Positions 453 through 15,092 of a DNA stretch of 64,000 nucleotides are shown here, in pieces (position 1 is the first letter of the stretch; the number at the start of each line of letters is the position of its first letter). The DNA is from Sandaracinaceae bacterium. Its GTDB lineage: Bacteria > Myxococcota_A > Polyangia > Polyangiales > Sandaracinaceae. Under the pieces are notes generated by a model, which worked only from the letters and a program-made list of their open reading frames with translations, made no database searches and had not been told where the DNA came from. The DNA lies in assembly GCA_040218145.1 (NCBI GenBank), contig JAVJQK010000122.1:1-64000 (forward strand). The letters run 5' to 3'. The position numbers and the translations under genes are program-made.

Positions 453-905
453 TCAGGGCGTCACGCTGCATCCGTGGATGATCAGATCCGCGTTGAGGCC
501 GAAGTAGGAGGCACAGCCAAGGGCGTGGATGCTGAGTCCGATTGCTTCCCCCTCATTCGACCAGGTGGTGCCACGCTCACTCAGGAGGCAGTCGTCCACG
601 GGACCCGGGGCGGATGCCGAATGGACCTGGCGCGACTCGTCGAAGGGAAGCGAGTCGTCCCAGACGCGAGCGACGCTGTCGCCTGTGACGTGCAGCCGCA
701 TGTCGGAGCCGCCCTCGAGCGGTCCCACCCAGAAGCCTGCGCCTTCCTTCGACACCTCGATGGAGATCAGGGAGGCCGAGGGGGAGCCCGTCCAGCTGCA
801 GGCGACCGCTGCGTCTGTTGCGTCGAACGCCTTGGGACAGGGTGCAGAGCCGCAGTCCAAGATCCAGCCGGCCGACTCGAGACTCGCGGCTGTCGCGGCG
901 TCCAT
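453..905 (-). CDS. Hypothetical protein, six cysteines, possible N-terminal truncation
   Basis: The frame gives 150 residues from ATG at 905. I do not recognise a family. It contains six cysteines (near residues 18, 23, 36, 105, 130 and 146) and many Ser, Gly and acidic residues, as expected for an exported disulphide-bonded protein, yet no signal peptide or lipobox is present at this start. The 5' flank reads as Arg-rich low-complexity sequence in this and the adjacent frame, so the real N-terminus may have been lost. It is separated from the McrC gene by about 220 bp that holds a coding scrap. A decayed envelope lipoprotein is my best guess. Confidence 0.45.
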   Translation of the reverse strand: MDAATAASLESAGWILDCGSAPCPKAFDATDAAVACSWTGSPSASLISIEVSKEGAGFWVGPLEGGSDMRLHVTGDSVARVWDDSLPFDESRQVHSASAPGPVDDCLLSERGTTWSNEGEAIGLSIHALGCASYFGLNADLIIHGCSVTP

Positions 906-944
906 CCGCTCGCCGCCGGCGTCGACGTGGCGCGCCCGCGGCCG

Positions 945-1083
945 ACGACGACTGCACCGTCGAGGTCATGACGGGCGACTACTCCGACTTCGACCGCGCG
1001 CCCGAGCTGAGCCGACAGGCGTGCGCGACGTCGCGCTCCCGCGGCCGACCACGCTCGGCGAGTTCCACGACTTGCGGTCGTGA
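945..1083 (+). pseudogene. Coding scrap between hypothetical gene and mcrC
   Basis: In one plus frame the text runs DDDCTVEVMTGDYSDFDRAP, which looks like real protein, and then turns to Arg/Ser low complexity. The natural-looking continuation (VALPRPTTLGEFHDLRS, then stop at about 1081) is in a neighbouring frame. This pattern suggests a frameshifted remnant of a gene whose 5' part is gone. I cannot name the family. It is weak evidence and could be chance in GC-rich DNA. Confidence 0.3.
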
Positions 1084-1123
1084 CGGCGATGAGACCACCA
1101 CCGGACAGTCTCTGCGCGCGACC

Positions 1124-2395
1124 TCAGCTGGAATGCACCTCGAGTTCACCGATGCCCTTGGTCAGCACCGCGGCGAGATCGGAGGCGGGGTCTCCGTCGA
1201 GGCCGAGGAAGACCGGCACGCAGCGATGGTCACGGCCGACGTAGCGTCCAGTGTCGCCGAGCCGGGTCGCGCCTTTCGGCGCTGGGTACAGCAGGAGCGA
1301 CGTCTGGCAGTCGAAGAGCTCGTGGTAGCAGAACATCTGTTTGATGTCCGCGCTGCTGGGCTGGCCTCCCGCCGGTAGCTTCCACTTCGTGTCGATCACG
1401 ACGAGCGGCGATTCGCGGTCGGGGTGCCGCAGGGTGATGTCGGGTCGGAGCGGCCGCGCCTTGCCCCCGAGCCGCCAGAAAGAGCGTGAGTCTTGCGTGC
1501 GGACCTCCACGCCGGGGAGGCGCAGCCGGCGAGCGAGCGCGGCGACGTAGCGCTCCCACAGGGCGTTCATGTCGAAGAGCAGCGCCAGGAACGGCGTCTG
1601 GCCGCTGCGGAGGTCGGGCGCGAGCTGAAAGAGGATCAGGCGGGCGAGCCTCAGGGCCCCGCGGTACCGCGTGGTGTTCCGGGTGAGCCGGACGCGCTCC
1701 AGCGCCGCCTGGTCTGGGCGCCAGGCTGGAAGCTGCGGGAACGCGTGGCGGATGCCGCGCGCCCGAGCCCGGGCGCCGCCGGAGATCGGCAGCGTGTCGA
1801 GCAGCCGCAGCGCCTCGTGAAGAGCGAGGTTCGGGAGGTTGCGGTGGTCGTAGACAGGGCTCGCGACGTAGAAGCGGGCGGCGTTCACCGCGTTGTGCCG
1901 GGCGTGCTCCGCGACGAGCAGCCGGCCGCGGAACGCCGTCCGGTTCGCCTCTTCCGTGCGATATCCCTTGGCGAGCCCCTGGTGCACGAGCCGCTCGCAC
2001 TCGTCGAGGAAGTGCTGGATGAAGAGGTCGAAGAGCCGCCCCGGATCGAGCCGCAGCTGCGCTTCGTCCTGGGACTCGAGCCCCAGGTCGCCGACGACGC
2101 GGAGCATGTGGACGAGGGCGCGATGCCAGCGGCCGTGCCCTCCCGCCTCCGTTCGGTCGGCCTTCGGCAGAATCTCGAGCGAGAGGTCGCCCAGCTGAAG
2201 CACGCCCACGTACGAGCCGAAGCGAACCGTGTGGCGTCCGCACGAGAGGTATCGGTCGGCGGTCCCGTCGGCAAACGCCGCGAGCGCGCGGTGCTCCGCG
2301 GCGCCCAGCGCGTACTCACCTCCGGTGGAGGTTCGCAGCGGCTCCCCGACGCGCACCGTGGTGTGCTCGAACACCTGGACGGTGACCGACGGCAC
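1124..2395 (-). CDS. mcrC: McrC-type nuclease subunit of a modification-dependent restriction system
   Basis: The product has 423 residues, normal for McrC. McrC supplies the nuclease for McrB, the GTPase that recognises modified DNA in type IV restriction. The PD-(D/E)XK core is visible near the C-terminus: Asp319 in RPDIT, then Asp335 and Lys337 in VIDTKWK. The N-terminal half matches the McrC/LlaJI layout (an early TVRVGEPL strand, then long helices). Translation starts at GTG 2395, directly after the McrB stop, so TGA and GTG abut and the pair is translationally coupled. It is the last gene of the minus-strand defence cluster. The assignment is firm; which DNA modification is recognised cannot be read from this subunit. 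Confidence 0.88.
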   Translation of the reverse strand: MPSVTVQVFEHTTVRVGEPLRTSTGGEYALGAAEHRALAAFADGTADRYLSCGRHTVRFGSYVGVLQLGDLSLEILPKADRTEAGGHGRWHRALVHMLRVVGDLGLESQDEAQLRLDPGRLFDLFIQHFLDECERLVHQGLAKGYRTEEANRTAFRGRLLVAEHARHNAVNAARFYVASPVYDHRNLPNLALHEALRLLDTLPISGGARARARGIRHAFPQLPAWRPDQAALERVRLTRNTTRYRGALRLARLILFQLAPDLRSGQTPFLALLFDMNALWERYVAALARRLRLPGVEVRTQDSRSFWRLGGKARPLRPDITLRHPDRESPLVVIDTKWKLPAGGQPSSADIKQMFCYHELFDCQTSLLLYPAPKGATRLGDTGRYVGRDHRCVPVFLGLDGDPASDLAAVLTKGIGELEVHSS

Positions 2396-4876
2396 TCAGC
2401 CGCCTGCCGTCTCGTAGATGGCGCGGAAGTCCGCCGTGGAGATGCTGTCCAGGGGCGTGAGGCGATACGTCCTACGCTCCGAGAGCTGATCGGCGGCCTC
2501 ATGGTTGAAAGCGGCGAGGGTCGCGTAGCTCCCCGCCTCGCGCACGAACGGTGCTCCGAGGACCAGGCCCACCCGGCCCAGGTCCGCGTAGAAGTACTCG
2601 GAGAGCAGCGGGAGGATGTTCATCGCGAACACCTCCTTGAGCTTCTCGATGGTCGGCTCCTGCTGGACCGCCATGAAGTACGCGTGCCCCAGCAGGTGGT
2701 CGCGATCGATGAGCAGCTCGAGCCGGGCGTTGATCACCCGGAGCATCCGGACGACGTCCACGCCGCCCTCGACGACCGTGCCGTCGAGCACGCTCGGATC
2801 GGGCGGGCACTCGATGAACGAGAACCGCCGCCGCAGCGCCGAGTCCAGCGCCTCGACCGACCGGTCCGCCGTGTTCATCGTCCCGATCACACAGAGGTTG
2901 GAGGGCACGCCGAACCGCCGCCGCGAGTAGGGGAGGGTGACGATCAGCTCGCCTTCGGCGCCGAGGCGCTTGTCCTCCTCGAGCAGAGTGATCAGCTCCC
3001 CGAAGATGCGCGACACGTTGCCGCGGTTCACCTCGTCGATGAAGACCGCGTAGGGTGGGGCCCCGTCGAGGAGGTCGGCGCGCTCCTGGGCCGGCAGTCG
3101 ACAGAGCTCGTCCACGGTGCCCTCGAAGCCCGCGAGCCGGACCGCCGCGTTGGCCGCCCGGAGGAACACCCCATCCTCGAGGTCGTAGGTGAGGGTGGCC
3201 GACCCGTCGCCGTCGCCCTCGCTCGTCTTCGGGCGGATGCCCTCGATGAAGTCCTCGTAGGCGTAGGACTGGTGGAACGTGAGGAACACGAAGTCCTCGG
3301 TCGCCTCCGCCGCTCGCGGACGCAGCGTCTCCGCGAGCTCCGCGATGTCCTCGGGCACTCCGCCCGGGAAGAACCACGTCCCGTCCTCGCGCTTGTCGAA
3401 CACGAGCCGTCCCGTGCGCTTGCTGTAGCCGACCGTGCGACTGCTCTCGACGGTGTGCGCCTGCAGGGTCGCCCAGATGCGCGAGCCGATCGGCGCCTTG
3501 TGGTCCTTGGCCTGGTACTTCGTCTTCACGAGCGGGTGCTGGCGGAGCTCCATCGCCGTCGCCGAGCCACCCGAGGCCGCCACCGCCGCGGCGATCACCT
3601 CGAACCACGACAGCGCCAGCAGTGCGTCGACGTCCACCGCACGGGCCTCGCTCGCGCGGGTGAACTTCGGCCGGATGTCGTCGCGGAGCCGGTACGTCTT
3701 TCCCGTCCCGGGGGGCCCGTACAGGATCACGTTGCGCGGCCCGGTCCAGGTGAGCGCGGGCTCGGTCTCCCGGGACTCGCCGAAGATGAGCTCGATGATG
3801 TCCTCGCGCGTCACCGGCACGAGCGTCTCGAACCAGGAGCCCGCGCCCGACCCGCGCGGAGCCGGCCCCTTGTACAGCTTCGAGTCGAGCGGCCGCAGGT
3901 CGAGGCGCCCGAGCTCGTCGTCCTTACCCGTCACCTCGCCGACGTAGTGCACGACGAGCTGGTAGCTGCCGCCCAACCCCTTGATGGCGAACCAGTCTCC
4001 GACCTGGACGTCCTCGAATCGCGCCCAGCTGTGCGCGGCTCCCTTGCCCTCGTCGTCCCGCTTCCAGCCGATCTGCCAGTAGTCGTCCTTCAGGAACGCC
4101 ACGCGCCGCTCCTCTTCGCCGAAGCCGCCCGCCCAGTACTTGCGACCATCCGCTTCGTCCTCGGCGTCCACCAGCTCGTCGTCGTCTTCGTCCGCGAGCC
4201 CGAGCGCGGCGAGATCGATGAGGGGAACGCCCCGAGCGCGCGCAGCCTCGCCGCCCACGAAGAAATCGAGCTTGATGAGGCTCAGGTGCACGAGACGCCG
4301 GTAGGCCTCGACGGGGCTCGGCAGCACCGCCGCGTCTTCGGTCCTGACGATGAACGGCTCGACGCTGTAGTCGGTGAGCAGCGGGAGGCCCGACTCCCCC
4401 ACCAGCGCCTTGAGCTTCTTGTTCTTCCGGCTCTGCGAACCCCTCGAGCCGACCACCCGCTTCTTGAGGTGGTACCAGGCGGAGATGGCGATCTCCGGGT
4501 CCTCGGACCCGTCCAGCGCGGTGGCCACGTTGCACCACGTGAGCTGACGCGGGGGGCTCAGCACGCGAATCGCGATCGCCACCTTCGCCTCGGGCCGGCG
4601 CGCCGCGCCCGCGAAGAGGAGGAGGTCCACCGCTCCGCCATCCCAATTGCACCTCAGCACGACCTGCTGTGGCCAGAGCCCGTCGGTCTCCTCGGAGAGG
4701 CCGGCCACCGGCATCGGCCAAGGATCATCCTGCCGCTCGACCTCCACGCGCACCTCGCGTCCCGCGACGGTGAGCTGGAACGCCTCCGCGGCCTGGATGA
4801 CCTGCCGGACGGCGCGCAGCGCGATCTGGTTGGCTTCGGCCGGCGTCACGCTCCCGCCCTCCGGGGCTGCCAGCAC
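2396..4876 (-). CDS. mcrB: McrB-type AAA+ GTPase/ATPase, restriction motor subunit
   Basis: This 826-residue protein is the motor and recognition subunit partnering McrC. The AAA+ core has Walker A GPPGTGKT near residue 385, Walker B VFIDEVNRGN near 610, the McrB signature MNTADRS near 662 and arginine fingers SALRRRFSF near 680. The N-terminal 350 residues are long for McrB and should carry target recognition. They include an acidic linker (ADEDDDELVDAEDEAD near 230) and a compact beta segment (VGDWFAIKGLGGSYQL near 290-310) that resembles EVE/PUA-like base readers. The longest frame starts at GTG 4876, but GTG 4849 has a better upstream GGAGG and may be the true start. Whether GTP or ATP is the nucleotide is not settled by the motifs. 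Confidence 0.87.
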   Translation of the reverse strand: MLAAPEGGSVTPAEANQIALRAVRQVIQAAEAFQLTVAGREVRVEVERQDDPWPMPVAGLSEETDGLWPQQVVLRCNWDGGAVDLLLFAGAARRPEAKVAIAIRVLSPPRQLTWCNVATALDGSEDPEIAISAWYHLKKRVVGSRGSQSRKNKKLKALVGESGLPLLTDYSVEPFIVRTEDAAVLPSPVEAYRRLVHLSLIKLDFFVGGEAARARGVPLIDLAALGLADEDDDELVDAEDEADGRKYWAGGFGEEERRVAFLKDDYWQIGWKRDDEGKGAAHSWARFEDVQVGDWFAIKGLGGSYQLVVHYVGEVTGKDDELGRLDLRPLDSKLYKGPAPRGSGAGSWFETLVPVTREDIIELIFGESRETEPALTWTGPRNVILYGPPGTGKTYRLRDDIRPKFTRASEARAVDVDALLALSWFEVIAAAVAASGGSATAMELRQHPLVKTKYQAKDHKAPIGSRIWATLQAHTVESSRTVGYSKRTGRLVFDKREDGTWFFPGGVPEDIAELAETLRPRAAEATEDFVFLTFHQSYAYEDFIEGIRPKTSEGDGDGSATLTYDLEDGVFLRAANAAVRLAGFEGTVDELCRLPAQERADLLDGAPPYAVFIDEVNRGNVSRIFGELITLLEEDKRLGAEGELIVTLPYSRRRFGVPSNLCVIGTMNTADRSVEALDSALRRRFSFIECPPDPSVLDGTVVEGGVDVVRMLRVINARLELLIDRDHLLGHAYFMAVQQEPTIEKLKEVFAMNILPLLSEYFYADLGRVGLVLGAPFVREAGSYATLAAFNHEAADQLSERRTYRLTPLDSISTADFRAIYETAGG

Positions 4877-4879
4877 ATC

Positions 4880-4978
4880 TCATCTCGCACGCTCGGGTGT
4901 CGCCTGGGTCTCGTCATGAGTCAACGAGGCTACCTGAAGTTCCAGGTCCTGTAACTCGCGAACGAGGGCCAACACCAC
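4880..4978 (-). CDS. Possible 32-residue helical ORF in front of mcrB
   Basis: Between the DUF262 gene and mcrB a minus frame can start at GTG 4978 (or 4975) and stop at TGA 4880, four bases before the GTG of mcrB. It reads VRELQDLELQVASLTHDE in its centre, a good amphipathic helix with Leu/Val spacing. There is no clear Shine-Dalgarno sequence, so it may only be the untranslated leader. If real it would be coupled to mcrB. Low confidence. Confidence 0.22.
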   Translation of the reverse strand: MVLALVRELQDLELQVASLTHDETQATPERAR

Positions 4979-5016
4979 CCGGCGACCGGAGATAGGCCGG
5001 GTGCCACGTCCACCGT

Positions 5017-6660
5017 TCAGCGAGTGAACAACTTCGCGCCGGCTCGCTTCTCGAAGGCGGCTGCGATCATGTGCGCACGGTCGCGCGAGAAGCGCTTGAA
5101 GCTCTGCTTCACCGAAAGGTCTGCGTCCTGCCACTCTTCGTTGAGCGGGATGAGATGGCTCCGGGCCACCCGCGTGAGGACTCGCCGGTTCGCGGGCACG
5201 TCCTCGAGGTAGCTCCGCGGGTCTCGCCGGCCGACGGACTGGTTCTCTCGGGCGACGAGGAAGCAGATGTTCGCAAGCGCGTCGATGCTGCGATCGCTCA
5301 CCCCGGATTCGGAGAGGAGCTTGCGGGGGAAGACGTGATGGCGATCTCGCCTGTTGGCCCGAGCGCTGTGCTCGCCGAGCATGATCTGCTCGCCGTCCTC
5401 GAGGTAGCGAGGCTGTTGAAGGCGGAGCAGGCAGGTGAACGCCGCGGCGAGAGACCCCCGCCGATAGTCGGTGCGCCAGAGATCGGAGAGAGGTAGCTTG
5501 TCGTGCCGGAAGCGCACGGGCTTCTTCTCGGCGAGCTTCCGCATCGTGTGCACGTCGCTGACGAGGTTCCTGCGAAAACCTCGGCCGGTGTATCGACCGG
5601 TCACCGCCGACGCCCAGAACCATCGGGACAATACCTTCGCGACTTCGCGAGAGGGCTGACGGCCGCGGTTGAAGTAGAAGAACGTCGCGAGGACGGAGAG
5701 CATGGTGTCGGAGGGCATCGCCGATCGGTCCGGCACGCCGAACTTTCGCACGACGTAGTCGCACGCCTCCGCGAAGGCTCCGCGCAGGCGCTGCCAGATG
5801 CGCGTGACCTTCTCGGCTCCGCGCGGCTCCTCCTCGAGGGTGGCGAGCACGCGCTCCACGGCGCGCTGTCCCACGTCCTTCGAGTCCAGGATGATCCCGA
5901 CGGTCTGCAGGATGGTGCGGTCGTCCAGACCGTCGAACCCATACTTGAGCTCCGCTTGGAGGTCGCGGACCCGATGGCGGAGGTTCACCTTCGTAGCCCT
6001 CGCGAACGCCTGGTCGGCTCCGCGCAGCGGCGTGCCTTGGGCATTGATGCGCACGAAGGCATTGCGCACCGACTCGAGGTCCTTCGCGTCCACAAACGTG
6101 AGCTGGAAGCGGTAGCCCAAGAGCTGGTCGCGGCAGGCGTGGACGCGCTCGTGATCCCGCTTGCCGAGGTGGGCGAGCTTCGTACGCCACCGATCACTCA
6201 ACAGGTCGACCACCGACACCGAGCCCTCGGGGTGCCGCTGACGCCAACCGAACTTCCCGCCGCCGGAGGCGGGCGAAAAGTAGGCGCGCCGGAAGTCGAT
6301 CTCACGCTTCCCGACTTTGACCGCGCCGTCTCCGCCAGCGAGGAGCTGGTGCAGCACCGAGATGCGCTGCTGGCCATCCAGGAGGAACCAGACCTCCGGG
6401 TTCGACGGGTCGTACTGCGGGAGGATGTGGAGCCTCTTCCGTAGAGATCCGGCCTTCTCTCGCCGCGTCCTCCACACGAGCGCGGCTCCGATTGGGTAGC
6501 CCCGGTACATGGAGTCGAGAAGCACCGGGATCTTCTGGTCCTTCCACACGAACTCCCGCTGGAGCTCGGGGATCGCGAAGACTCTGCGATCCAGGTGACG
6601 GCGCAAGGCGCGGACGGTCATCGGCTTGGAGACAGTTGTCATCTCGGTGGGGTTCGACAT
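5017..6660 (-). CDS. DUF262 (GmrS-like) protein with HNH-like C-terminus
   Basis: The 547-residue protein begins with a DUF262/ParB-like domain. IPELQREFVWK lies at about 28-38 and the diagnostic DGQQR motif near residue 95. DUF262 proteins include the GmrSD and BrxU families that cut modified DNA using nucleotide hydrolysis. The C-terminal third has a DUF1524/HNH-type signature, RHHVFPRKL near residue 438, followed by ANICFLV and ARENQSVG. That gives a one-chain GmrS-GmrD arrangement. It sits 75 bp downstream of a PD-(D/E)XK gene and 140 bp upstream of mcrB on the same strand, consistent with one defence operon. The start is ATG 6660 with GAGG just upstream. The substrate is inferred from the family, not from this sequence. 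Confidence 0.82.
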   Translation of the reverse strand: MSNPTEMTTVSKPMTVRALRRHLDRRVFAIPELQREFVWKDQKIPVLLDSMYRGYPIGAALVWRTRREKAGSLRKRLHILPQYDPSNPEVWFLLDGQQRISVLHQLLAGGDGAVKVGKREIDFRRAYFSPASGGGKFGWRQRHPEGSVSVVDLLSDRWRTKLAHLGKRDHERVHACRDQLLGYRFQLTFVDAKDLESVRNAFVRINAQGTPLRGADQAFARATKVNLRHRVRDLQAELKYGFDGLDDRTILQTVGIILDSKDVGQRAVERVLATLEEEPRGAEKVTRIWQRLRGAFAEACDYVVRKFGVPDRSAMPSDTMLSVLATFFYFNRGRQPSREVAKVLSRWFWASAVTGRYTGRGFRRNLVSDVHTMRKLAEKKPVRFRHDKLPLSDLWRTDYRRGSLAAAFTCLLRLQQPRYLEDGEQIMLGEHSARANRRDRHHVFPRKLLSESGVSDRSIDALANICFLVARENQSVGRRDPRSYLEDVPANRRVLTRVARSHLIPLNEEWQDADLSVKQSFKRFSRDRAHMIAAAFEKRAGAKLFTR

Positions 6661-6734
6661 GGACCTCGTCGCTCAGGTGCTCAGCAGCTCGGGAAGCTCG
6701 ATGGGGGCGCGTTTGTTGCTTTCTGCTCGGAAGC

Positions 6735-7523
6735 TCAACCGGCTGCGATCGAGCCGCGAACTTCCGCTTGGCGATGCTCGGCGGGTCGGAAGGAGTTCGA
6801 GTTCCGAACCTTGAACACCTTCCCGTTCTCCACGAGGAGCAACCCGATCCCGAACTTGGAGAGCTTTCGGTTCAGCGCATCGGGGTCCCAGCGCCCGACG
6901 TCCTTCGCGTTGAAGTGCCCCCGCAGGTAGCTCGCGGCGAGCGCCGGTGTGCACGCCAGATAGACCTCGTGCGCGTAGTCGGAGTAGTTGGTCATCTGGT
7001 CGAGCCCGCGCTTGAGCTGCGAGAGCTGGTTCTTCAGCTCCACCGCCACGATCTGCTCTGGGCCACCGAAGAAACTCCCCAGCTTGTGGCCAGCCAGGTC
7101 CACTCGACTCAGGCCCATCGGCACCTCGTCGTGTGCCGCGAGCTTCTGCTTCGCGAGCCACTTCCGAACCGGCTTCCGGAGGTCGTCCTCCCGCTTGACG
7201 GGGCAGAAGACCTTCGCCTTCTCCTCGGCCTTGGCCTTCGAGAGGAACAGTCCTGCCGCGAAAATCTCGGGGGCCGAGCACTTCTGCCATTCGGAGTTTC
7301 TCATCCGAGCGAGATGAGGGATGTGCTCGGCGAGCGCCGCGGCCTTGTCCTTCGCCTTCATGCGCTTGCGCTGGGCGGAGTTGAAAGGAGCTTTGAGCGC
7401 CGTAATCACGGCGTCGATGACTCCCTCACGCTTCTCGGCCTCTCGAAGGAGGCGGGAGCGTGCATGGCAGAATCGGGTTGTGTCGTAGCTCTCGTCGAGA
7501 AAGTAGCCGTCGAAGAACGCCAT
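6735..7523 (-). CDS. PD-(D/E)XK-like nuclease, first gene of the defence cluster
   Basis: The 262-residue protein has a basic helical N-terminus (residues 1-110) and a C-terminal half with a PD-(D/E)XK signature: Asp142 in SRVDLAG, then Glu162 and Lys164 in VAVELKNQ, followed by a helix carrying Gln176 (GLDQM). The strand-helix-strand text after it (YSDYAHEVYLA) is typical of this fold in restriction and MmcB-like proteins. No HTH or membrane segment is seen. ATG 7523 is the start. Its place upstream of DUF262, McrB and McrC genes suggests an extra nuclease or a modulator in the same system. The fold call rests on motif spacing only, and I cannot name a subfamily. Confidence 0.68.
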   Translation of the reverse strand: MAFFDGYFLDESYDTTRFCHARSRLLREAEKREGVIDAVITALKAPFNSAQRKRMKAKDKAAALAEHIPHLARMRNSEWQKCSAPEIFAAGLFLSKAKAEEKAKVFCPVKREDDLRKPVRKWLAKQKLAAHDEVPMGLSRVDLAGHKLGSFFGGPEQIVAVELKNQLSQLKRGLDQMTNYSDYAHEVYLACTPALAASYLRGHFNAKDVGRWDPDALNRKLSKFGIGLLLVENGKVFKVRNSNSFRPAEHRQAEVRGSIAAG

Positions 7524-7663
7524 CAGTTTCCGTCACTTGCGAGGTCGGCGTCGGCAGCGCACCGTCGGCCCTCGCGGTTCCTCTGGGGGTGGGGATCTCC
7601 GCACCGAGTGGAACCGATCTGGTGGGGTCGACGCAAGCCCGCATGTCGTGCTCTTTCGACCTA

Positions 7664-7712
7664 TAGCAAGAGTGCTCTAGCGCGATGTCGCTTCACTAGA
7701 GCAAGAATGCTC
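7664..7712. promoter_or_regulatory. Paired palindromes, candidate operator
   Basis: Two palindromes of the form AGCA-AGAR-TGCT occur at 7665-7677 (AGCAAGAGTGCTC) and 7700-7712 (AGCAAGAATGCTC), 35 bp apart. A further inverted pair, GCTCTAG (7674-7680) and CTAGAGC (7696-7702), bridges them. They lie in the divergent region between the PD-(D/E)XK gene (start 7523) and the small gene at 7813. The repeats are seen directly; an operator role is inferred and no regulator gene in the cluster is identified. Confidence 0.5.
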
Positions 7713-7812
7713 GTGTTCGTCGGGAGTACCCACTCGGGTGTCGCGGTCGCCTCTCGGGGCGTGGTATCCGTAGGGGGATGTTGCGGGAGACACCCTGCGG
7801 TCCGGGGAACGC

Positions 7813-8028
7813 ATGAGCGCGAACGACTCCCCGACGCCCGTCCGTGACCCCCTCGTGGACGCGCTGTACGCCGACTTGGTCAGCCCGTTCGCTGGAGCGG
7901 ACTCGCACGAGAGCTCGCGAGAGCTTCTGCGGAACCTCAGCGTCAACCGGCCTGGGTCGGGGACGCGCAACCTTCGGTCTTCCAGAGAAGACTCGCCGAC
8001 GCAAGTGCCGTGTCGACCGAATGGATGA
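7813..8028 (+). CDS. Small acidic protein overlapping the J-domain gene
   Basis: ATG 7813 opens a 71-residue frame after GGGGAACGC. The first 45 residues (DPLVDALYADLVSPFAGADS and onward) have protein-like composition; the tail is Ser/Arg/Pro-rich. The stop TGA at 8026-8028 overlaps the ATG of the J-domain gene at 8021 by 8 bp, which suggests coupled translation. No family is recognised, and no membrane segment or cysteine pattern is seen apart from one late Cys. It may be a small partner of the J-domain protein, or simply a leader ORF. Confidence 0.45.
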   Translation: MSANDSPTPVRDPLVDALYADLVSPFAGADSHESSRELLRNLSVNRPGSGTRNLRSSREDSPTQVPCRPNG

Positions 8029-8920
8029 CGAAGAAGAAGAGGACCTCTACGAGACGCTTCAGGTGAGCCCGAAGGCGGAGCCGGAGGTCATAGAGGCTGC
8101 ATTTCGACGACTGGCCCGCAAGTACCACCCGGACGCGAATGGCGTGGGCGCAGACGACGCGAGAATGAAGAGGCTCAATGCAGCCTTCGGAGTCCTCCGG
8201 GACGCCGGGGCGCGCCAGAGATACGACAACGAGCGGCGACGTCGAAGGGCACGGAAGAAGAAGCAAGGGCGCAAGCCGTCGAGGAAACGCACAGGGAAGA
8301 GGCGTGAGGAAACCGGCCGGGCGGATGGCGCGAGGGTCGAGGAGTCGGAGCCTCACGCGCCGGAATCGAACCGCCCCCCCTACACAGGCACCGCGGACCC
8401 CAATAGGTCGCGCCGCTATCTCGCGTACCTGATCCTGGGAGCGACGATCCTGATCACCGCCATGATCATCGACGGTACGAGAGGAACTCCACGGGGCAAC
8501 CAGCGAACACGCCCGTCTCCGGTCGTGCGCCCCGCGCCACCGCCCCTGCCCGCGGAGCGCACCATCACCTACGCGTTCGAGCATCTCTGGCCAGGGGGAA
8601 CGGTCGGCGCCTGTTCCGAAATACGAGTCTCCGGTCCGATCAGCCTCGGGAACGAAGACGTCCTCCGTCGCCACTTCGCCTCGGAGGCTGGGCAATGGAA
8701 GGTCGGTGGACGTTCCGGGTCAGCATACCGCCCCATCCAATCGTGCTCCGCGGTTCCCCGTAGGACACTCGCGATATGTGAGCTGCCGTCAATTCTTCCG
8801 ACCGGACTGTCGCACCTGCGGGCAGCACCCAGGCAGATGCGGGTCTACAGCCCCGCTGAGTTCCAGACGGGCGGGGATTGGTGCGCCAACGAGGGGGGCC
8901 TCTGGCGCCGAGCCGACTGA
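8021..8920 (+). CDS. Membrane-anchored J-domain (DnaJ-like) protein
   Basis: From ATG 8021 the product has 299 residues. A J domain occupies about 8-70 (LYETLQVSPKA, then the HPD motif in RKYHPDANG, then FGVLRDAGARQRYD), so it should stimulate an Hsp70 partner. A strongly basic Arg/Lys linker follows. There is one transmembrane helix around residues 130-148 (LAYLILGATILITAMII), a proline-rich spacer and a C-terminal domain of about 110 residues with four cysteines. No DnaJ zinc finger or C-terminal peptide-binding domain is present, so it is a type III J protein. The longer frame starting at 7844 is unlikely because it overlaps the small upstream gene and lacks coding character. The C-terminal domain is unrecognised. 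Confidence 0.75.
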   Translation: MDDEEEEDLYETLQVSPKAEPEVIEAAFRRLARKYHPDANGVGADDARMKRLNAAFGVLRDAGARQRYDNERRRRRARKKKQGRKPSRKRTGKRREETGRADGARVEESEPHAPESNRPPYTGTADPNRSRRYLAYLILGATILITAMIIDGTRGTPRGNQRTRPSPVVRPAPPPLPAERTITYAFEHLWPGGTVGACSEIRVSGPISLGNEDVLRRHFASEAGQWKVGGRSGSAYRPIQSCSAVPRRTLAICELPSILPTGLSHLRAAPRQMRVYSPAEFQTGGDWCANEGGLWRRAD

Positions 8921-9126
8921 TTGCGCTGCGCCGAGGGCTCCGGCCACCTCAGGGCAGAAGGCCGGTGCTGCCCGGCGTGGGCGTCTGGGCGCAGTCGCGC
9001 AGGGCAGGCAGGATCCTGTTCCCGGCGCGCTCCCGCTGCGCCGGGGCCTCACCTTCTCCAGGGGGTGGCCCGCCTGGGTGGGAGGGCAGAGACGCCAGCC
9101 GCGCGCGGGGGCATGCCGGTTTGCGT
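8921..9126. other. Intergenic sequence without recognisable genes
   Basis: This GC-rich stretch follows the J-domain gene. I see short inverted stretches but no coding frame with protein-like text, no repeat shared with other parts of the window and no clear terminator. Confidence 0.3.
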
Positions 9127-9305
9127 TCAGTCGCCCTCGTAGCTCGCGACCTCCGGCGCGATCGGGTAGTGCAGCTCCAGCTCGGACTCCGGTGGGTTCG
9201 GCGCCGTCAGCCCGCTGGCGCACGCTCCACACACGACGCCATCTCCCCCGCGACGTCGCCGGGTACGGAGACGAGGTGCTCGCCCTCCCAGCGGTAGCGG
9301 GCTGG
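9127..9305 (-). pseudogene. Frameshifted C-terminal coding remnant
   Basis: On the minus strand one frame reads YRWEGEHLVSVPGDVAGEM and continues to CVERAPAG before a stop. The continuation that looks like protein, ESELELHYPIAPEVASYEGD followed by TGA at 9127-9129, is in another frame. The two halves join if one indel near position 9200 is undone. Nothing protein-like lies upstream, so only the 3' end of an old gene seems to remain. The family is not recognised. Confidence 0.4.
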
Positions 9306-9309
9306 AGTC

Positions 9310-10029
9310 TCAGGCGGCGCTGGGCGCGCTGCCCGCCGCGCGGGGCTCGAGCGCGCTCACCTCGAGCTGACGGCCCCCCGCGAGGAGCCACGCGCAGAAG
9401 GCGACCTCCGCCACGACCGGGACCAGGTAGGCCGGAGCGAAGGGCTCCTGGAGGCCCGGGGCGGCGACGTGGATCGCGCTGCCGACGAGGTAGACGACGC
9501 CGGCCGCCGAGAGCATCGCGCCCAGCCAGCTCGGGGCGCGGCGGGCGCGGAGGAAGATCACGCCCAGGAGCACGCAGCTGACGCCGAAGAAGAAGAGCCC
9601 GAGGTCGTAGCCCGCCGCGTGCGACTCGAGGAGGTGCACGATCAGCGCGTCGTTCGCGCCCGGGGCGCTCGCGAGGGTGACGGCGCCCTGCAGGCTCGAC
9701 AGGTTGAGCCCGAGGATCGCCGCCTGGACGAGCCGGAAGACCATCGCCGCCAGCGCCAGGCGCGGGCTCAGCGGTCGCAGCAGGATGAACAGCAGCGCAG
9801 CGAGCCCGACGTCGCTGAGCGCCATCAGCACGTCGCCCAGGATGCTGAGCCGGAACGGCAGCTCCGCCGCCGCGAGGTTCGCCACGGTCTGGCTCGCGTC
9901 GCCAGGCACGTGGATCGGACCGCGGACCAGCGCGTCGCCCCCGATGCCCAGCGCGATGATGGCGACGTAGAGCAGGCCGGCCAGGCGGGCGAGGCGGGTC
10001 GTCGACGGGGTGCGATCGGTGGCGGTCAT
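9310..10029 (-). CDS. DUF4386 family integral membrane protein
   Basis: From ATG 10029, preceded by GGAGGACC at good distance, the product has 239 residues. It shows about six hydrophobic helices, the first in LAGLLYVAIIALGIGGDAL, later ones in LMALSDVGLAALLFILL, LALAAMVFRLVQAAI, LGLFFFGVSCVLLGVIFL and LVPVVAEVAFCAWLLA. The order and spacing match DUF4386, inner-membrane proteins of unknown function often found beside transcription regulators. The longer frame to 10119 runs across a palindromic upstream region and is unlikely to be translated. The gene is monocistronic here. Confidence 0.75.
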   Translation of the reverse strand: MTATDRTPSTTRLARLAGLLYVAIIALGIGGDALVRGPIHVPGDASQTVANLAAAELPFRLSILGDVLMALSDVGLAALLFILLRPLSPRLALAAMVFRLVQAAILGLNLSSLQGAVTLASAPGANDALIVHLLESHAAGYDLGLFFFGVSCVLLGVIFLRARRAPSWLGAMLSAAGVVYLVGSAIHVAAPGLQEPFAPAYLVPVVAEVAFCAWLLAGGRQLEVSALEPRAAGSAPSAA

Positions 10030-10104
10030 GGTCGGTCCTCCAGGTCGAGTCCCCACCGTACCCATGCATTGCTGTGGGATAAATCCCCGATCGTGCACCC
10101 ACAC

Positions 10105-10122
10105 CATGCATCGATGCATGGA
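10105..10122. promoter_or_regulatory. 18-bp perfect palindrome upstream of the DUF4386 gene
   Basis: CCATGCATCGATGCATGG is a perfect palindrome 76 bp upstream of the ATG at 10029. A further ATGCAT lies nearby at about 10064. This is a candidate operator for a dimeric repressor. The symmetry is seen; binding is inferred and no dedicated regulator gene sits next to it. Confidence 0.45.
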
Positions 10123-10259
10123 TCGCCCCTCAGAGCTCAGACCGGCACGCTACGTGTCGAGCGGGTGCTCGGCCCACGAGCCCCTCGTCGCGGGCCGGCG
10201 CGACTCTGGGATTGCAACGATCTCGAGGCCGGCATCACCTGGGCCAGGGTCCGTGCGCG

Positions 10260-10853
10260 TCATTCCCATTCCATGTCGACGCGTCCCTCGGTCGGCTCGG
10301 CGGTCACCTCGAGCCGGGTCAGCCTCCCACCTGCCGCCTCGACGGCGACGGCGAAGACGTTGGCTTTCTCGCGGACGATGAGAGGTGGATGCAGGTGAGA
10401 GGGGAAGCCGAGGGTGAGCCGAGCCGTGTTGCCCGACGCTCGGCCGACCAGCGGCGCGCCACGATGGAAGTGGCTCCAGCGCGCGGTGGCCGTGCGGATC
10501 AGGAACGCCGGGGACGCCACGAAGACGATCGCGCGGTAGGTGCGGGTCGACAGCAGCTTCTCGTTCGAGCGGCGAGCGGCGAGCAGAAACGCCTCGTCGG
10601 AGTCGAGCGCGTCGGCGATCATCAGCTCGAACAGGTTCACGTGCACCGTCTGCACCCACGCATTGGGCAGCACGTCGCGGGCGTCGAGACCCGTGACCTC
10701 CTGGAGCGTCGGCAGGAGGCTCTTGGCCACCGGGTGGCAGTCGACATAGGTCTGGAGAATCGAGCCCTTCGTCTTGCAGTTCGCATGGGACTTCAGGCCC
10801 ATGGGGAGGGATTCGACGTACTGCTCGGCTCGGCGCCCCAGGTGTTCGCTCAT
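10260..10853 (-). CDS. Hypothetical protein, possibly DUF2378/TIGR02265-like
   Basis: ATG 10853 gives 197 residues. The layout is an N-terminal helical part (LKSHANCKTKGSILQTYVDC), a middle helical block (VNLFELMIADALDSDEAFLL), then a segment around WSHFHRGAPLVGRASGNTAR and a beta-rich end. This resembles the myxobacterial DUF2378/TIGR02265 paralogue family, which has a V4R-like shape and unknown function, but the match is from memory of the pattern only. No signal peptide is seen. A 57-bp repeat lies upstream. The longer frame to 11381 crosses the DMP19-like gene on the other strand and is rejected. Confidence 0.55.
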   Translation of the reverse strand: MSEHLGRRAEQYVESLPMGLKSHANCKTKGSILQTYVDCHPVAKSLLPTLQEVTGLDARDVLPNAWVQTVHVNLFELMIADALDSDEAFLLAARRSNEKLLSTRTYRAIVFVASPAFLIRTATARWSHFHRGAPLVGRASGNTARLTLGFPSHLHPPLIVREKANVFAVAVEAAGGRLTRLEVTAEPTEGRVDMEWE

Positions 10854-10936
10854 TCGGACGAGAGTAGGCTGCGTCTCGCGATCCCGTCGAGGGCCCAGTC
10901 CGCAGAGTTGGACCGGTAGCCGCCCTAACCGAAGCC

Positions 10937-10993
10937 GCCGGTCGAGGCGTGAGGTAGGCGACGCGCGTCCGCGATCAGCCTGCACGACGGCCC
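10937..10993. repeat. 57-bp dispersed repeat, copy 1
   Basis: This intergenic segment, beginning GCCGGTCGAGGCGTGA, matches 12370-12426 in the same orientation with 6 differences in 57 bases and no indel. It lies in the divergent region between the genes at 10260-10853 and 11091-11519. It may be a remnant of a shared coding sequence or a small repeated element. Confidence 0.6.
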
Positions 10994-11090
10994 ACGAGGG
11001 CGCGACCTCGTGACCGGTGCAAGAAGCCGGGGCGCGATGCATTGCAGCTCGACGGTGCTGATGCCATCTCGCGGAGCGAGGAGACTCGAC

Positions 11091-11519
11091 ATGGTCGACC
11101 TGGACGCAGAGTTCGAGCGCGCGTGTGGCGAGCCGCACGAAGGCGCCGCGTTCGACGCCCTGTCTCGACGCGACAAGATCCTGATCGCCATCTGGGGACT
11201 GGAAGCTGAGGTCAACAACGGCGGCTTCGACCAGTACTACTTCAACGGCGCGGGCGACCTGGCGTTCTTCGCGCCGCAGGCGCTCGAACAGATCGGCGCT
11301 CGGAACATGGCCGCCATCGTTCGGGAGGCGAACGAGAGGTTCGGGGTCAATGGACCCGCGCGTGATCGGGAGACACGCCAAGAACAGCTGACGCGGCTGA
11401 CCGCATCAAACGAAGACCTCTTCGATTCGCTGGACCGTCGCTTCCAAGACTATCCCGACGACATCTCCGCCGTCTTGACGGTCTTTCTCGACGGCGCCGA
11501 CGATCGTGAATCCACGTAG
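11091..11519 (+). CDS. DMP19/DUF4375 family protein
   Basis: ATG 11091 has GAGGAG upstream and gives 142 residues. The family hallmark is clear: ILIAIWGLEAEVNNGGFDQY, then FNGAGDLAFFAPQALEQIGA. DMP19 proteins are small acidic helical proteins; the Neisseria member is a DNA mimic that sequesters a repressor, while most members have no known role. The C-terminal text (SLDRRFQDYPDDISAVLTVF) also fits. It is flanked by repeat scraps rather than an operon, so the context gives no hint of a partner. Confidence 0.8.
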   Translation: MVDLDAEFERACGEPHEGAAFDALSRRDKILIAIWGLEAEVNNGGFDQYYFNGAGDLAFFAPQALEQIGARNMAAIVREANERFGVNGPARDRETRQEQLTRLTASNEDLFDSLDRRFQDYPDDISAVLTVFLDGADDREST

Positions 11520-14929: not shown

Positions 14930-14961
14930 CCGAGCAAGCGGGACCCGATGGGGACCCGATG

Positions 14962-15046
14962 GGGACGCTCTTCGTCATATCGTCATTCGCGAAACGCACC
15001 GGGATCACGGCGGTTCTCCCAATGACGATATGACGATGAGCGTCCC
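14962..15046. repeat. 85-bp GGGACG hairpin element, copy 1
   Basis: The arms begin GGGACGCTCTTCGTCATATC and end GATATGACGATGAGCGTCCC. They pair over 26 bp with one mismatch around a 33-nt loop. Length and ends match five other copies near 59-62 kb. This copy has a divergent loop. It lies 165 bp beyond the stop of the gene at 15211-17559. It is interpreted as a REPIN-like element mobilised by a RAYT transposase. Confidence 0.8.
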
Positions 15047-15092
15047 TGGTGCTTCTCCGCCCGCGCTTCCCTGGTGCTTCTCCGCCCGCGCT
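15044..15092. repeat. 25-bp tandem repeat abutting the hairpin
   Basis: A unit starting CCCTGGTGCTTCTCCGCCCG occurs at 15044 and again at 15069. The first three bases are the CCC end of the hairpin element, so the duplication includes its border. It may be a footprint of insertion or slippage. Confidence 0.6.

Follow-up and report, generated by a model that had tools for sequence, protein, structure and literature searches.

The four-gene locus

Four intact open reading frames, all on the minus strand, span positions 7523 to 1124 of the window (the whole stretch of 64,000 nucleotides that was analysed). In order of transcription they encode a putative PD-(D/E)XK nuclease of 262 aa (6735..7523), a DUF262 protein of the GmrSD/BrxU type of 547 aa with a C-terminal HHxFP/N HNH motif (5017..6660), an McrB-type AAA+ GTPase of 817 aa (2396..4849) and an McrC of 423 aa with an RPD...DTK PD-(D/E)XK motif (1124..2395). 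A previous sequence-only reading had placed four genes on one strand in close order and named these families; the reading frames confirm the arrangement, and the assignments hold, by Pfam, NCBIfam and PDB matches together with motifs; that of the first gene, a probable nuclease, is supported by motifs and weak profile matches.

The nuclease and DUF262 genes are separated by 74 bp, while mcrB and mcrC abut without any gap. For mcrB, the GTG at 4849 is more likely to be the start than the alternative at 4876 (826 aa), since homologous N-termini start there, and with this start 167 bp lie between the DUF262 gene and mcrB. A scan of positions 900-8300 with the sigma-70 consensus found no promoter-like site, and because the genes are also co-oriented with short gaps, it is possible that all four are on a single transcript. 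An inverted repeat (CTCTAG...CTAGAG, 7675-7702, minus strand), possibly an operator, precedes the start of the nuclease gene by about 150 bp. The GC3 values of the nuclease (0.84), DUF262 (0.86), McrB (0.93) and McrC (0.89) genes differ, which hints, if weakly, at separate histories.

McrBC and the N-terminal modules of McrB

The third gene encodes an McrB according to its NCBIfam match and its matches to the TgMcrB and EcMcrB structures. It carries an AAA_5 Pfam match (E 6.6e-16) and the motifs GPPGTGKT (Walker A), IDEVNRG (Walker B) and NTAD (signature). The adjoining McrC matches the Pfam McrBC model (E 4.1e-57), and its RPD...IDTK motif was located. As in the McrBC systems of E. coli K-12 and Thermococcus gammatolerans, a GTPase with Walker A/B and NxxD signature is directly followed by an McrC with a PD-(D/E)XK motif. 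The N-terminus, in contrast to known McrBC, consists of two modules, N1 and N2, with no Pfam match to DUF3578/ADAM or EVE.

N1 comprises the first ~225 residues of McrB (4178..4846, minus strand, by profile match coordinates); it has no match to a Pfam model, and a PDB search with its alignment (A2) gave no meaningful match. A profile search with A2 recovered the module in 12 of 377 genomes, in most of them on McrB-like AAA proteins. In G085 it lies within a single-frame DUF262/HNH protein of 1165 aa (L085 4657-8154), the gene of which adjoins a DISARM-type (DrmMI-type) methyltransferase gene, and in G004 it lies in a frame of 431 aa. N1 would thus resemble a recognition domain, a role that fits because the module is common to two type IV families. 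N2 (~125 aa, 3764..4147, minus strand) is 44% identical to the matching region of the McrB at L086 and was also found at L141; a sequence search of the PDB gave no match, and by its motif N2 is possibly PUA/EVE-like. A structure model of McrB residues 1-360, built from one sequence, was unusable (pLDDT 38). In E. coli McrB the N-terminus sets specificity, and by analogy it is plausible that it does so in the present protein.

The DUF262/HNH protein

The product of the second gene matches Pfam GmrSD_N (DUF262, E 6.8e-20) and the BrxU structure 7p9k (E 2.3e-11). Its DUF262 motifs QREF, DGQQR and FVRIN were located, as were HHVFP (441-445) and N464 at the C-terminus, where the Pfam DUF1524 model gave no match; the same HHxFP/N HNH motifs are present in a 45% relative. 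The protein has in common with the single-chain DUF262-DUF1524 enzymes GmrSD and BrxU the QR, DGQQR and FxxxN motifs and the C-terminal HHxFP...N motif, and it is similar in length to BrxU, although its sequence match to the latter is confined to an N-terminal stretch. The best PADLOC matches are PDC-M55C (1.9e-34) and HEC-05 (5.2e-31), both DUF262 candidates. PDC-M55 also has two partner genes, A (AAA) and B; these are absent from this cluster, the other three genes matching neither M55A nor M55B in PADLOC, which places the locus outside PDC-M55.

The putative nuclease

The first gene contains the motifs RVDL (140-143) and VELKN (161-165), so that Asp142, Glu162 and Lys164, which the sequence-only reading had picked out as nuclease residues, are indeed present; they are followed by Q176. 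All four residues are invariant in a three-row alignment of full-length proteins, two of which are 35-38% identical to the window copy. No Pfam and no PADLOC match was obtained for this gene. The sce7726_fam profile (NCBIfam NF033832) matches all three proteins weakly and below threshold, gene 1 scoring 23.6 bits against a curated cut-off of 70 bits and thus falling outside the family as defined, and the HSDR_N profile matches one of the relatives (E 3.3e-4). HSDR_N is a PD-(D/E)XK domain well known from type I enzymes. When a sce7726 member was aligned with gene 1, the order RVDL...ExK...Q, which is that of the family, was the same at an insignificant score; gene 1 differs from the family in an extra N-terminal region of ~110 residues. 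An AlphaFold2 model made from two sequences only was of low confidence (pLDDT 48), a Foldseek search with this model returned nothing significant, and a PDB search with the nuclease alignment (A1) gave no meaningful match.

Gene 1 therefore probably encodes a nuclease, the evidence for its PD-(D/E)XK fold being limited to conserved motifs and weak matches to profiles. It is unlikely, though compatible with the interpretation preferred below, that the protein is instead a DNA-binding or regulatory one, inactive as a nuclease and with a decayed or unrelated fold. The lack of Pfam and PADLOC matches and of any fold match for the low-confidence model would fit such a protein, but the invariance of D142, E162, K164 and Q176 across proteins as far as 35-38% identity apart, the weak sce7726_fam and HSDR_N matches and the motif order held in common with the sce7726 member (insignificant in score) argue against it. 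Its identification as the B component of PDC-M55 was considered and rejected, as it does not match M55B.

The family is rare. Two further full-length relatives (G172 and G146) and one partial C-terminal match (G337) were found in up to 377 Myxococcota genomes. A contig collection covering 85,000 species yielded one of the two full-length relatives again and a second copy of the block that carries the present genes, in a scan with narrow exact patterns that distant relatives could escape. No relative was found in plasmids or phages, and viral contigs contained no relatives of the nuclease, the DUF262 protein or McrB.

A second copy of the block and hairpin-repeat arrays

The four genes lie within a block of 10.18 kb (908..11088) that is 99.6% identical to part of SHBB01000122.1 (L005 1856-12036) from Sandaracinaceae MED-G138, a second MAG of this family, but the flanks differ. 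Both genomes share 98% identical DNA elsewhere too, so that the second MAG is a close relative and the copy is not independent evidence of conservation; retention of the whole block at this identity tells little about selection for the arrangement. All 16 differences in mcrB between the two copies are synonymous, so that the protein looks maintained, while the nuclease, DUF262 and mcrC genes together have four differing sites. This uneven spread of differences along the block suggests a mosaic history.

On the SHBB contig a hairpin repeat of ~104 bp bounds the block on both sides, as if the block were one large unit of a hairpin-repeat array, whereas the block borders in the window carry no such repeat. 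Within the window the repeat was observed at 14955-15058 (~90 nt, ~26-bp arms, DNA fold z -7.3), and it gives 96 blast matches in the genome, both arms and strands counted. At G000:C80 (L145 4269-16761; L146) a same-orientation series of the repeat has unrelated single genes between its copies, and in the corresponding array at G377:C223 units have been gained or lost; the repeat-delimited arrays of both genomes look like a gene-cassette array. An attC/integron origin of the repeat was rejected, as no RYYYAAC/GTTRRRY ends were seen by eye. A DMP19-like gene (11091-11519; Pfam E 5e-26) begins right at the end of the shared block; the DMP19 family is known for a DNA-mimic protein.

Recurrence of the genes in other genomes

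Sensitive searches covered Myxococcota genomes, with limited searching beyond them. G361 encodes an McrC (E 1.5e-94) and an McrB (E 5e-223) that is likewise laid out as N1-N2-GTPase; no DUF262 or nuclease match was found there within 16 kb, and the gene beside mcrBC looks like one for aconitase. The operon also occurs without the nuclease and DUF262 genes in G244, there followed by a gene for an HNH protein with an apparently EVE-like N-terminus, and in G146, beside Pycsar, type IIG-like and HNH genes. McrBC is known to occur with many other systems (PMC11090510).

In G234, which encodes the closest relative of the DUF262 protein (45%), another DUF262 gene lies upstream of that relative, and neither the nuclease nor McrBC was found at the locus. 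Other relatives adjoin PDC-M55 partners, HipA-like proteins (sequences read by eye) or unrelated plasmid genes, and none of the partner genes at the other scanned DUF262 loci resembles the nuclease. Two tandem DUF262 genes at L084 (7992-11322) are arranged like TgvAB, in which a DUF262 protein is coupled with a second one (PMC11411939). Around the nuclease relatives in G172 and G146 there is no DUF262 or McrBC match in 18 kb, and the three kinds of match in G172 (nuclease, DUF262 and McrB) are Mb apart.

DUF262 matches are present in 61 and McrB matches in 71 of 282 genomes. As read by eye from the two match tables for these same genomes, the window and G222 are the only cases in which the two lie less than 10 kb apart. 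The DUF262 gene of G222, a distant one, is ~3 kb upstream of the McrB gene of an mcrBC on the same strand; in G281 the DUF262 and McrB matches are ~26 kb apart. The sequence-only reading had named the absence of such joint occurrence elsewhere as grounds for giving up its proposal; in diverged lineages among the genomes searched the nuclease-DUF262-mcrBC arrangement was indeed not found, and it recurred only as the near-identical block of the related MAG.

Interpretation

We consider it probable (roughly 77%) that the locus is a small defence island in which an mcrBC operon, an independent DUF262 gene and a solitary nuclease stand side by side. This reading is based on the occurrence of mcrBC of the same architecture alone in G361, and of mcrBC unaccompanied by nuclease and DUF262 genes in G244 and G146, on the occurrence of DUF262 and nuclease relatives apart from mcrBC and from each other, and on the difference in GC3 and the 167-bp gap preceding mcrB. 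Against it stand the co-orientation and short gaps of the genes together with the lack of a promoter-like site in the sigma-70 scan, the presence of the whole block in the second MAG and the distant DUF262 gene upstream of mcrBC in G222. Mixed neighbourhoods of this kind are known: defence islands are described in which GmrSD homologues cluster with RM systems unrelated to them (PMC4619093), and a BREX-BrxU island provides two defence layers (PMC8565348).

With independent units, mcrBC (4849-1124) would by itself make up a complete restriction system of type IV. As we infer from other McrBC systems, McrB would recognise incoming DNA that is modified, or marked in some other way, through its N-terminal modules; translocation would be the task of the ring formed by the AAA+ GTPase, and cleavage that of McrC. 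Acting alone, the DUF262/HNH protein would be a single-chain NTP-dependent nuclease of the GmrSD/BrxU type, and the 262-aa protein would be a third, solitary nuclease, located upstream by chance and possibly acquired together with the DUF262 gene.

Alternatively, the nuclease and the DUF262 protein could form a two-gene type IV system, with the nuclease as partner effector, beside an independent mcrBC. Their adjacency at 74 bp and their similar, lower GC3 compared with McrB would be expected of such a pair, and other DUF262 proteins do have dedicated partners (PDC-M55 A/B in L113-L115) or are paired with a second DUF262 protein, as at L084 and in TgvAB. We nevertheless judge this improbable, as neither of the other full-length nuclease relatives adjoins a DUF262 gene, the closest DUF262 relative lacks the nuclease and the partners at the other scanned DUF262 loci are unlike it. 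Rather doubtful, too, is the combined proposal that two unrelated type IV families have exchanged N1 as a recognition module not described before (it is fused to McrB GTPases in several lineages and to the DUF262/HNH protein of G085) and that the rare nuclease partners the DUF262 protein; if true, the cluster would consist of two type IV systems with a related targeting logic. A single composite system of all four genes, combining three nuclease activities, is very improbable, since, for all the co-orientation, the short gaps and the whole block in SHBB01000122.1, the same-architecture mcrBC is complete alone in G361 and the four-gene arrangement was not found elsewhere in the genomes searched. 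Of the two options offered by the sequence-only reading, one composite or two stacked systems, the latter thus gains from the recurrence of mcrBC alone, while the former loses from the lack of four-gene recurrence in diverged lineages among the genomes searched.

The cluster is most likely ordinary in kind: an McrBC operon of type IV, next to it a gene of the GmrSD/BrxU type, and a putative nuclease that is both rare and solitary. Attractive as a composite of four genes may be, separate units lying side by side are the better reading, because the mcrBC part recurs complete by itself. Two results should be of use beyond this locus: the module N1, which is without a Pfam model and is joined to a DUF262 protein as well as to McrB, and a rare family of putative nucleases, of which these searches recovered just two more full-length members.
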